NCBI GenBank assembly: GCA_019637355.1
Contig: JAHBVT010000001.1
Location: 1,395,192 to 1,459,191 of the forward strand
DNA length: 64,000 nt
Source: Gemmatimonadaceae bacterium
GTDB taxonomy: Bacteria > Gemmatimonadota > Gemmatimonadetes > Gemmatimonadales > Gemmatimonadaceae
Reading direction: 5' to 3'
Shown here: piece by piece, positions 14,249 through 23,943 of the stretch
How positions within the stretch are numbered: the stretch's first letter is position 1
Layout of the letters: the number at the start of each line of letters is the position of its first letter
Position numbers and translations under genes: made by a program
The notes under the pieces: generated by a model
Database searches by the model: none
Seen by the model: the letters and a program-made list of their open reading frames with translations, nothing else
What the model was told of the DNA's origin: nothing

Positions 14249-14289
14249 CTAGCGCGGGCACACAACCGGGACGTCCGACCTCGGCCGCA

Positions 14290-16740
14290 CTACAATTGAT
14301 GGTCCAACGCGTGATCCGCTCGGTCCTCCTCAGGATAGACGGCGCGCAATTGCGCCACGAGTTGGGATTGATTGTCGTAAGCAGGATGCGCCGGGACACG
14401 GCAGTACTTCTCGTCCTCCGAACACACGTAGCGCACGAACTCGCGACCCATTGGAGCCCATGCGACTTTGCGGCTCTGCCGCTGCAAGGCAGCCAGTGAT
14501 GCGTGCGCTTCGGAAGAAGCGATAGGTGTCACGAGTAGCATCTCTGAGATGTACGCTTGATCGCGAGTCCCCCAGCGGAGGTGCTGAAATCCGGCTGGCG
14601 TCAATTCTACCCGTTTAGCTTTCGCAATCTCTGTTATCGTTGGGTCATAGGAGCCGCAGAGGCCATACTCGAGCATCTTCCCCAGTATGCGTGTGGTTGC
14701 CCGCGGCTCTACGTGCATCGCTCTGAAGTAGTCGATAACGTGCTCGACCGGCATGAACGGGTCCGTGGGGTCGTGCTTAGAGGTGTCGCGAAGCACCTGC
14801 AGGAGACGCAATCCAAGCAGAGGGGAGTGCTCAAGATCTTCATCAAGTGCAAAGACGTTGCGCACGAAGGTGTTCTCGGTGCTGGAGAAGATGTCGTATC
14901 GCCCGTTCACCAGGGCCTTCTTGACTCTCCAAGCCGGCAGAACGATTGACGAGCCTGCGATGTAGGTCTTGAGCAACTCTGCGACCTCAAGCCGGGGACT
15001 CGAAACAAGGTACTTAGCGAGCTCGAGGCACCGGCGAACGTCGTTATTCGCAAGATTCCCAATCCAATACGCGACATCGCCCGACTTCAGGAAGATTCCC
15101 TGCAGGGCAGCGGTAAAGGCCGTGAGGTTGTCCAGCGAAAGTGAAATGCCGCGGCCGATGAAGTAGCCTCGTCCCGGTTCGCGCTTCTCCTCGTGCAGTC
15201 GCGACTCAAGAAACTCGATGCGCTTCTTGAGCACAACCATCGGGAGGGGAGTCGGTAGGAATAGCGATTCGTTCTCAAAACTCCGAAGAGCGCCCTCCCG
15301 CGAAAGTTGCCAGCTCGTGCGATCCGTAATCGGCATTACCACGAGACTCAGTTCCGATTCGTACAGGGAACGTGCATACTGAAACACACGCTCCTGGAAT
15401 TCGATTGTGAAATGGTCGGCGTTGTCGAACACCAGACACGGTAACATCCGCCGGACGTTGACGATGTGTTGCAGCAATCTTTTAATGTATTCGTGCGGCC
15501 GTGTCTCTCGACGCTCTTCAATCATTCGTCCAAAGTCGATCTGGAAAGACACTTTGTCGCTTTCGTAGAGGTACTTTAAGGTTCCTTCTGAGCGCCTCTT
15601 GTATTCGTCGAAGAACATTCCCTTCAGCTCATCGAAGCTCGGCCCCTTCTCGCCAAACACTGCCTGCTCGAGAGCGCTCAACAGGCGACGGTTGAGCCAC
15701 TCAGACACCTCAGAGTCGTTTCCGTCGCTGTCAGCGAGGTTTATTCGGGCGACGACCAGCTCGCCAGCCAGAGGACGCGGCAAGACGAACTTGAAGAAGC
15801 GATCGATGAACGTTGACTTGCCCGCACCTTTGGTACCGATCAGCAGTACGAACTCGTTTCGGCCGGTATCTCTCACGCGAGAGATGACTGATGACAGTTC
15901 GCGGCCTTCATCCGTGTCCAGGTTCTTGATTCTCCCCAGCAAGTCGTCTGAGATTCGTGCGAGCCTCTCGTCCGCGTGCTGGCTCTCTCTCGACACTACG
16001 AAGCATTTCGCCAACAGATCTGGATCGTCATCGCCACTAAGGCGGCGAAAGAACGAGGTCATGACGCGTTCGATATCGGACATCAGCGTTGACTGTGCGA
16101 GAAGCACGCGTGAATCGGGGTTGCGCAACGCACGCCGAAACTCGTGGGTGCGAAGCGGGCGCCCCTCCGCTTCTTGAAAGTGAGCGCGAAAGGCCAGTTG
16201 AGCCACGTTCTCGGGCGACAACAGAGCCCAAAAGAGCGCAAACTCGCTCTTGATCGCCTCGTATCCCGGGAATACGAACGCCATGCCATCAAGTGTGTCG
16301 CGCCCGTCCCCCAGTCTGCTTCCACGGAACACGATCCATTCGTGTCCGTTCGTCACCACGGCGAGTTCAGCGTTCCGCATGCCGCAATACCGAATCGCTT
16401 GTTGCAGCCCTTCGCGGGTCGCCGCTTCTTTGAAGATGGGGCCTGAGAGCTTGTAGCTTCGCCCGGGGCGCGCGGTTGGAGCAAGGAGGGGCAGGCCGTC
16501 CCGCTTCGCCTCGACAATTACCCGAGTTAGCGACTGGTTGCAGAGCCGATAGTCAATGTATCCGGATCCTGCCATGCTCTCCGTCATAATGTCTTCGAAG
16601 GTCCAGCCAAGAACGTCGGAGAGGATGCGGTCAATCACTTTTACGCGGGTATCCTGTTCGGACACGACCGACTTCTTGTAAAGCTCAATCTCGCCGTGGA
16701 GCTGGGAGAATCTCTGCAGCGCCGAGTCGATGGGTTCCAT
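14290..16740 (-). CDS. HsdR-N-like nuclease / P-loop ATPase, candidate defence protein
   Basis: 816 aa from ATG 16740; the frame stays open upstream to 17670 but that part is antisense to the S9 peptidase. Residues 25-150 resemble the type I restriction HsdR N-terminal domain: Asp63, then E77-A-K79 as a PD-(D/E)xK core, then QQAIRYC (114-120) and AVVTNGHEW (128-136). A P-loop NTPase follows: Walker A GTKGAGKST at 302-310 and Walker B LVFDNAD at 436-442. The C-terminal third is helical-looking with a winged-helix-like LTPAGFQHLRW. There is no helicase, no signal peptide and no membrane segment. GC is clearly lower than the flanks (sampled lines 45-60%), and six CATG sites occur here versus four in the rest of the window. 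It stands alone, inserted between sdhB and the S9 peptidase, without transposase or visible direct repeats. Function is inferred: phage or plasmid defence by an ATP-gated nuclease. Confidence 0.72.
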   Translation of the reverse strand: MEPIDSALQRFSQLHGEIELYKKSVVSEQDTRVKVIDRILSDVLGWTFEDIMTESMAGSGYIDYRLCNQSLTRVIVEAKRDGLPLLAPTARPGRSYKLSGPIFKEAATREGLQQAIRYCGMRNAELAVVTNGHEWIVFRGSRLGDGRDTLDGMAFVFPGYEAIKSEFALFWALLSPENVAQLAFRAHFQEAEGRPLRTHEFRRALRNPDSRVLLAQSTLMSDIERVMTSFFRRLSGDDDPDLLAKCFVVSRESQHADERLARISDDLLGRIKNLDTDEGRELSSVISRVRDTGRNEFVLLIGTKGAGKSTFIDRFFKFVLPRPLAGELVVARINLADSDGNDSEVSEWLNRRLLSALEQAVFGEKGPSFDELKGMFFDEYKRRSEGTLKYLYESDKVSFQIDFGRMIEERRETRPHEYIKRLLQHIVNVRRMLPCLVFDNADHFTIEFQERVFQYARSLYESELSLVVMPITDRTSWQLSREGALRSFENESLFLPTPLPMVVLKKRIEFLESRLHEEKREPGRGYFIGRGISLSLDNLTAFTAALQGIFLKSGDVAYWIGNLANNDVRRCLELAKYLVSSPRLEVAELLKTYIAGSSIVLPAWRVKKALVNGRYDIFSSTENTFVRNVFALDEDLEHSPLLGLRLLQVLRDTSKHDPTDPFMPVEHVIDYFRAMHVEPRATTRILGKMLEYGLCGSYDPTITEIAKAKRVELTPAGFQHLRWGTRDQAYISEMLLVTPIASSEAHASLAALQRQSRKVAWAPMGREFVRYVCSEDEKYCRVPAHPAYDNQSQLVAQLRAVYPEEDRADHALDHQL

Positions 16741-16796
16741 TGGGATCGTAGCGTGAGGCGTAACTGTGAACCACTCGCAACGTCGCGTCCAGCCCT

Positions 16797-22441: not shown

Positions 22442-22993
22442 CTAGATCTTGGGCAAGGTGACGCCGACCTGCCCCTGGTACTTGCCCTTCTTGTCCTTGT
22501 AGCTCACGAGCGGCGGTTCGTCGCCCTCGAAGAACAGCACCTGGGCGATGCCTTCGTTGGAATAGATCTTGGCGGGCAACGGCGTCGTGTTGGAAATCTC
22601 CAGCGTCACGTAGCCTTCCCATTCCGGCTCGAAGGGCGTGACGTTGGTGATGATGCCGCAGCGCGCGTAGGTGCTCTTGCCAACCGTGATGGTCATCACG
22701 TTGCGCGGAATCCGGAAGTACTCCACGGAGCGTGCCAGGGCGAAGGAGTTCGGTGGCACGATGCAGACGTCGCCCTCGTACTCCACGAAGCTCTTCGGGT
22801 CGAAGTGCTTGGGGTCCACGATGCTGTTGAGCACGTTGGTGAAGATGCGGTACTCGGGGGCCACGCGCATATCGTAGCCGTAGGCCGAGACGCCGTACGA
22901 GACGACGCCGGCGCGCATCTGTGAGCTCTCGAAGGGCTCGATCATCCCGTTCTTGGCCTGCTCGATGATCCAGCGGTCGTTCTTGATGGACAC
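22442..22993 (-). CDS. dcd: dCTP deaminase
   Basis: 183 aa from GTG 22993, which gives VSIKNDRWI, the usual start of this subgroup; the open frame runs further up to 23443 but overlaps the next gene and lacks family similarity. It deaminates dCTP to dUTP for thymidylate supply. [11 protein letters not shown] holds the conserved Lys-Ser...Arg, and [10 protein letters not shown] holds the catalytic Glu. [11 protein letters not shown] and the C-terminal [11 protein letters not shown] lid follow, as in the family. A GC-rich inverted repeat lies between it and the zinc protease. Confidence 0.93.
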
Positions 22994-23067
22994 GTACGGT
23001 TCTCGGTGAGGGTGGTCTGCCGCTGCCGACCGGAAATCTGCCCTCGGGAACCGCGGTCCGGAACCTG

Positions 23068-23943
23068 CTAGAACCTCCAGCGCACGCGTGCCTGCACCTG
23101 CCGCGCGTCCCAGCCGGGCTGCACGGAGACCTGCAACCGCGAGGTGGAGTTTCCCTGCACGCCGGAGATGCCCGAGACGAAGGCGGCCGCTGAGGTCGCG
23201 AGCGCCGCGCCGCGCCACGCGGCGGGTTCGGAGCCCGGGGCGGCGGCGGCGAGGCCCATCCCGACGAATCCGAGCACGATGTTCATCGCCGGGAGCGCCG
23301 CCGCCTTGCGGCCGAAGGGCGTGAAGCGCTGCAGGGCGAAGAGGCCAAGCGAGACGCCAGCGGTGGCCTTGAGGGCCGTCTCGTTGGTCAGCGGGTTGTC
23401 GTTCATCGGCTCGTAGATTCCCCCGCCGGGTCCCGGTTCCCATTCGTACGCCGGCTGAATGCCCGCCGCCTCGTCGAGCGTGATGCCGTACTCATCGAGC
23501 CACGCAGCGACTTCGGGATCGTCCGCGAGGTCGAGCACTCGCACGTGGTTGTCATCCGCCGCGATGCGGCGGACCAGCGCTTGGTGGCCCGTCTGCGCCA
23601 TCAGGTGGCCCACGGCACAGTGGGCGTCGGTCACTGGATCGACGAAGTACGAGACGTACTCACCTGCGAAGTCGCGATTCTGCGGGTACTTGCCGGCGTC
23701 GCGGTAGGCCTCGAGCAGCGCGATGGCCGCGGCGCGATTCGCGCGCTGGCTCGCGGTCAGCGAGCTGAGCTCGCGCTGCGAGAGGGACCTCAGGGCGCCG
23801 TTCAGGTGTCTTACGACGTGTGCCTGCGCCGGCGAGAGATGCACTGCCGGTGAAGCAGTACCCGGTGAGACGGACGGTGGAGAGACGGACGGCCCGAAGA
23901 AGAGGCCAAGGACGAACGGAAGGAGCACCTGGGCAATCGTCAC
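23068..23943 (-). CDS. Uncharacterised secreted protein with HCAVGHLM domain
   Basis: 291 aa. The N-terminus is hydrophobic (residues 1-20, signal-like). A conserved-looking core is at about residues 95-165: [20 protein letters not shown], then a pattern of [19 protein letters not shown] and I-Q-P. I recall similar H-C-A-V-G-x-L-M segments in uncharacterised Bacteroidota proteins. Two hydrophobic stretches near 205-260 could be membrane segments. There is no catalytic motif I can name. Divergent from the fragment gene at 24094; 150 bases separate them. Confidence 0.6.

Follow-up and report, generated by a model that had tools for sequence, protein, structure and literature searches.

A candidate mobile single-gene defence system combining a predicted HsdR-type nuclease and an Orc/Cdc6-class ATPase in one chain

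An 816-residue protein encoded within the window (the whole stretch of Gemmatimonadaceae DNA analysed here, 64,000 nucleotides) belongs to a family that, judging from structure prediction and sequence comparison, probably defends its hosts against phages or other invading DNA as a mobile, single-gene system. The protein is predicted to join an N-terminal PD-(D/E)xK nuclease of HsdR type to an AAA+ ATPase of the Orc/Cdc6 class. An anti-phage role is suggested because relatives occupy defence slots of prophages, mobile elements and islands; furthermore, the sporadic presence of the family, the foreign third-position GC content (GC3) of the window gene, the two predicted folds, and the conserved active sites all count for the defence reading.

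Results

An intact nuclease-ATPase gene in the window

The features of the gene and its surroundings are as follows.

14290..16740, minus strand: whole gene, an 816-aa nuclease-AAA+ ATPase of family phrog_14719
16165..16740, minus strand: PD-(D/E)xK nuclease domain of HsdR type, residues 1-192 (model and solved-structure matches)
16552..16554, minus strand: predicted catalytic D63, invariant in all relatives covering it
16504..16512, minus strand: predicted catalytic E77-x-K79, invariant in all relatives covering it
14941..16080, minus strand: AAA+ ATPase of Orc/Cdc6 class, residues ~221-600, including the lid and a helical insert at residues ~336-430 (model and fold matches)
15814..15837, minus strand: Walker A GTKGAGKS, residues 302-309 (sequence and alignment)
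15415..15435, minus strand: Walker B LVFDNAD, residues 436-442 (sequence and alignment)
15316..15333, minus strand: sensor-1-like PITDRT, residues 470-475, conserved in the close family and variable in the distant group
15034..15036, minus strand: sensor-2-like R569 in NDVRR (compare Cdc6 DxRR), invariant in 18 of 18 aligned sequences
14563..14823, minus strand: putative winged-helix-like segment, residues ~640-726 (helix-helix-helix-strand-strand in the model; some Orc/Cdc6 alignments reach it)
14293..14562, minus strand: C-terminal helical tail, residues 727-816 (model; cold-shock domains of relatives come after it)
14249..16796, no strand: foreign insert between sdhB and an S9 peptidase gene (composition and comparison with a congener)

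The reading frame opens with ATG and runs without an internal stop through 816 codons, and is thus intact. Its start codon is backed by relatives that begin MEPIDTAF and MENIDVSF, and the same start and full length are found in relatives from an Omnitrophota MAG (51% identity) and a Gemmata MAG (47%); full-length relatives at 30-36% identity also occur on plasmids. An assembly artefact was considered and judged improbable, given that the gene (G000:C1:1409484-1411931) is internal to a long contig and its flanks are intact. The motifs named in the first-pass annotation are all present and are conserved in relatives from 51% down to ~22% identity, so that they are not chance occurrences.

The N-terminal domain is a predicted HsdR-type nuclease

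The same annotation had placed a nuclease of PD-(D/E)xK type and a P-loop ATPase in one chain, and structure prediction bore this out, recovering both the PD-(D/E)xK core and the P-loop fold in the predicted models. The model of residues 1-197 (pLDDT 90.3, pTM 0.89, from an alignment of eight sequences) had HsdR 3h1t as its top solved match (Z 12.2, 3.6 A, 119 residues, 24% identity), and, among type IIG enzymes, also matched the nuclease domains of DrdV (Z 11.0) and BpuSI (Z 10.8). D63, E77, K79, and Y118 were unchanged in each of the 17 aligned sequences with coverage there, four of which are only about 20-25% identical, and Q114 was kept in all aligned relatives except one distant member. 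With Pfam, HSDR_N scored 0.077 on the window protein, below threshold, and exceeded its cut-off in relatives (2.6e-7, 1.4e-6, and 4e-10). The predicted structure confirms an HsdR-type PD-(D/E)xK fold with a D...ExK...QxxxY site in the first ~190 residues. The helicase domains of HsdR are absent, as had been claimed: Pfam detected no SF2 helicase in the window protein, and it is the AAA+ domain that follows the nuclease.

The ATPase domain is of the Orc/Cdc6 class

In the full-length model (pLDDT 75, pTM 0.59), residues ~221-614 matched Cdc6 (Z 14.0), RdrA of RADAR (Z 12.6), TnsC (Z 11.9), and CED-4 (Z 11.9), with Orc and RFC also among the structural matches; these scores lie near one another, and therefore support the Orc/Cdc6 class and not any single member of it. 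Pfam AAA_22 was found at 1.2e-7, and the large helical insert at ~336-430 comes after strand 2 of the ATPase. Residues G302, G305, G307, and K308, as well as D439, N440, and D442, were present in every aligned relative covering them. Together with these Walker motifs, the sensor-1-like D473 and the sensor-2-like R569 fit the description of RdrA and Cdc6 (PMC9994260). No conserved arginine was found just before strand 5 in the family alignment, and because no arginine finger can be assigned, ring assembly is uncertain.

The initial label of a STAND/AAA-like ATPase held in part: the domain is AAA+ of the Orc/Cdc6 class, a group that also holds STAND, RdrA, and TnsC, but no STAND-type repeat sensor was found. 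C-terminal STAND repeats were detected neither by Pfam nor in the model, parts of which fall under pLDDT 60, and McrB and STAND-repeat structures were absent among the matches listed for the model.

C-terminal OB domains are optional modules

From the model, the C-terminus of the window protein probably consists of a winged-helix-like part and helices. Nine of the 14 close members extend further and end in OB-like domains, one or two per protein; Pfam called a cold-shock domain in most of those nine (best E 7e-18), and the remaining OB-like assignments rest on length and alignment. Single-stranded RNA or DNA is the ligand of cold-shock and S1 domains. Such a domain is lacking in the window protein, the Omnitrophota member, the Robbsia member, and two of the viral/prophage contigs described below (L014 and L017), and no cold-shock domain lies downstream of the window gene, where the gap to sdhB is only 41 bases. 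In a tree of the family, in which the basal inner branches of the close family are unresolved, the OB-domain trait changed at least twice, which argues that the OB domain is an optional module. A distant relative on a Desulfocapsa plasmid (L021, 8524-11208) has HsdR_N in front and an S1 RNA-binding domain at its end, a different OB-fold in the cold-shock domain's place.

Relation to known families and systems

The window protein matched phrog_14719 with an E-value of 2.6e-217 (residues 1-799 to positions 1-809 of the 833-position profile). PHROGs lists this family under unknown function, and NCBI labels its members only 'AAA family ATPase' or 'type I restriction endonuclease'. The earlier statement that no named system matches still stands, as PADLOC has no specific profile and none was found in the searchable literature: PADLOC-DB 2.0.0 had no profile that matched the window protein even at an E-value cut-off of 10, and relatives gave only weak local matches or hits to generic models for P-loops or CSD. 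A chain of HsdR-type nuclease, Orc/Cdc6-class ATPase, and optional cold-shock/S1 domain was not found in the searchable text of papers. Orc/Cdc6-class ATPases paired with restriction-type nucleases in mobile defence loci are already known (PMC10853773). Our verdict is that this particular chain appears to be new, whereas the general pairing of a restriction-type nuclease with an Orc/Cdc6-class ATPase is a known theme.

The N-terminal nuclease of HsdR shares the PD-(D/E)xK fold and site of the window protein; however, HsdR carries an SF2 helicase motor, whereas the window protein carries an AAA+ ATPase and has no HsdM or HsdS of its own. RdrA of RADAR shares with it the AAA+ Orc/Cdc6 class, the Walker motifs, the sensor-1 D, and the sensor-2 R, and SspC and BrxC are other defence ATPases of this class; in contrast to all three, the window protein has a nuclease in the same chain. 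No partner gene, and hence no RdrB deaminase as in RADAR, is present in the window slot. Avs and other STAND nucleases combine an N-terminal nuclease and an NTPase in one chain, as the window protein does; unlike them, it shows no C-terminal repeat sensor in its model and has a Cdc6-like sensor-2 arginine. The conflict systems described in PMC10853773 resemble it in having an Orc/Cdc6-class ATPase, a winged helix, and a restriction-type nuclease, but are coupled to HerA/FtsK, inactive REase, or DndG-like proteins; the terms 'HsdR', 'CSD', and 'cold shock' are absent from the text of that paper. CoCoNuTs (PMC11090510) combine an NTPase with cold-shock OB-folds and nucleases, as the family does, but differ in their McrB-family GTPase, McrC partner, and coiled coils, which were not found here.

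Proposed mechanism and alternative forms of defence

The modelled anatomy supports an ATPase-switched nuclease. In such a mechanism, the Orc/Cdc6-class AAA+ domain and the winged-helix-like region would assemble in an ATP-dependent manner on nucleic acid or a phage-derived trigger, and the assembly would position and activate the N-terminal HsdR-type nuclease, which would then cut DNA; the C-terminal cold-shock/S1 domains, where present, would add sensing of single-stranded DNA or RNA. Oligomerisation, the DNA substrate, the trigger, and the target (invader versus own DNA) are what we infer here. As the locus lacks a methyltransferase of its own, the protein is unlikely to recognise self through its own methylation, and self DNA would presumably be spared via the trigger, DNA structure, or a modification absent in self. 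In its most specific form, which we put forward as possible but doubtful, a Cdc6/RdrA-like AAA+ ring tuned by swappable cold-shock/S1 OB domains would load on replicating or single-stranded nucleic acid of the invader and activate the HsdR-type nuclease, with self-recognition free of methylation. Domain content alone is poor proof of defence, given that, in PMC13092281, 23 of 24 remote-homology candidates scored low by its model gave no protection.

Defence could also take the form of abortive infection, in which a phage protein or event would trigger the protein and the nuclease would degrade the host chromosome or RNA. We regard this as a reasonable possibility, if short of probable, since sensors of this kind often have Orc/Cdc6-class or STAND ATPases (PMC10853773, PMC9994260) and relatives carry cold-shock and S1 domains, but the nuclease retains an HsdR-type site and HsdR acts on DNA. 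A type-IV-like restriction enzyme, which would recognise and cut modified or marked DNA with ATP-driven assembly as in McrBC, is an unlikely form of the defence reading. Pfam detected no base-reading domain (SRA, EVE/YTH, or ASCH) in any member scanned, and the ATPase matches Orc/Cdc6-class structures, whereas McrB belongs to another AAA+ group; this is set against the occurrence of a stand-alone nuclease and ATPase without a methyltransferase, the match of the nuclease fold to HsdR and type IIG enzymes, and the annotation of one distant relative (H29) as 'predicted type IV restriction endonuclease'. If the ATPase-switched defence nuclease is confirmed, the family would represent a compact nuclease-ATPase that chooses its targets without a methyltransferase of its own, and would connect HsdR-type nucleases with Cdc6/RADAR-class ATPases within one polypeptide.

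The window gene occupies a variable slot between sdhB and an S9 peptidase gene

Composition and genome comparison indicate that the window gene is horizontally acquired. Its GC3 is 0.69, compared to 0.90-0.95 in sdhA, sdhB, the S9 peptidase gene, and the next gene, and the window's GC minimum at gene length falls here (0.58 versus a mean of 0.675). In a profile search, two of the 395 genomes from the phylum had a family member, and within the genus the genome of the window was the only one. In the congener G004, sdhB and the S9 peptidase gene are 87% and 77% identical in DNA to those of the window up to the slot edges, and the slot itself spans 826 bp and carries a Phd-PIN toxin-antitoxin pair in place of the nuclease-ATPase gene (slot coordinates compared: window 14249-16796; L058 1066-1890; L060 1192-3262). 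The different contents in G004 and the window show that the sdhB/S9-peptidase slot varies, and the low GC3, the presence in 2 of 395 genomes, and the congener's toxin-antitoxin pair together mark the gene as foreign. The window copy lies in a variable slot only, outside any identified mobile element. In another genome of the genus (G298), the same slot holds a putative secreted metalloprotease-like protein.

A partner gene at the window locus was rejected, as sdhB and the S9 peptidase gene lie on either side. The reported absence of HsdM/HsdS neighbours is accordingly correct for the window, but does not extend to the family: one relative (L002) directly adjoins a complete type I system and another (L009) lies near one. 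Elsewhere in the window, positions 22442-23443 encode a protein with a C-terminal dCTP-deaminase-like domain (Pfam DCD, 3e-32); dCTP-deaminase-like enzymes can be housekeeping or antiviral.

Relatives in E. coli lie in defence slots of prophages and a mobile element

A DNA-level relative of the prophage member was present in 12 of 5426 complete E. coli genomes. Seven of the 12 copies are near-identical, and both near-identical loci examined in full lie in a P2-like prophage, between the portal gene gpQ and the replication gene gpA. This position is an established hotspot of anti-phage genes in P2-like prophages according to Rousset et al. 2022 (PMC9122126), and gpQ-gpA anti-phage genes were likewise shown by Vassallo et al. 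2022 (PMC9519451). The other five copies are 72% identical across part of the gene, and in the two of these examined in full the relative is the sole large cargo gene of a mobilizable element integrated at guaA. In other strains, the cargo slot of this element holds SIR2 and HerA (E 3e-92 and 6e-225), PDC-S06 and PDC-S73, or a type I RM system with DUF262 genes.

The guaA element (L027, L028, L029, L030, L031, and L032) encodes an integrase, RepA with or without RepC, TrbL/TrbJ, and TraC, and its cargo slot carries different defence systems in different E. coli strains; no description of it as a defence hotspot was found in the literature. In L029 (11973-16507), PDC-S06 and PDC-S73 are adjacent and overlap by a few bases, and this adjacency suggests that the two may work together.

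A role outside defence, as a DNA-repair or replication nuclease or a TnsC-like transposon-targeting ATPase, is very unlikely: the structural matches do include TnsC, Orc, and RFC, but the distribution is very sporadic, the composition foreign, and the cargo slots common to defence systems, and no constant transposase partner was seen among the annotated loci examined. Most improbable is that the family is already validated under another name, for example as a DS system in the DefensePredictor supplement (PMC13092281), whose validated E. coli systems include 13 with PD-(D/E)XK and 7 with P-loop domains, as the main text mentions neither HsdR nor OB-fold and E. coli members are rare by DNA search. 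With the mobile defence reading, phrog_14719 gains a testable candidate function, and test genes are ready in E. coli, namely WP_001755156.1 from the P2 prophage of strain C2 and WP_097420050.1 from the guaA element.

Other relatives and their neighbours

Relatives are found in defence hotspots and beside known defence systems, the evidence being a list of cases backed by PADLOC scans of chosen neighbours and alternative slot cargo. One family member (L010) is close to Olokun OloA/OloB, one (L002) directly precedes type I R/M/S genes, one (L064) lies near a type IIG enzyme, and two (L009 and L023) have annotated RM genes nearby. Several members, such as L003, L011, L012, and L013, are without a recognised defence neighbour. 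Six viral or prophage contigs from IMG/VR (L014-L019) carry a family member; no relatives were found in deposited phage genomes, and scanning viral contigs with the single proteins P0010 and P0011 returned nothing new.

Three of these loci show further details. Just downstream of the Gemmata relative (L003, 8239-9381) and on the same strand is a 380-aa gene with no PADLOC match, possibly a partner in the Gemmata lineage. In Rhizobium CIAT894 (L010, 10001-12885), the nuclease and ATPase parts lie in different frames, as two tblastn pieces, and the Olokun pair is intact. The only other member from the phylum (L064, 9963-12369, genome G197) consists of two overlapping ORFs split in the ATPase region, which could reflect a frameshift, a two-gene form of the system, or an error of assembly; the type IIG enzyme is just downstream.
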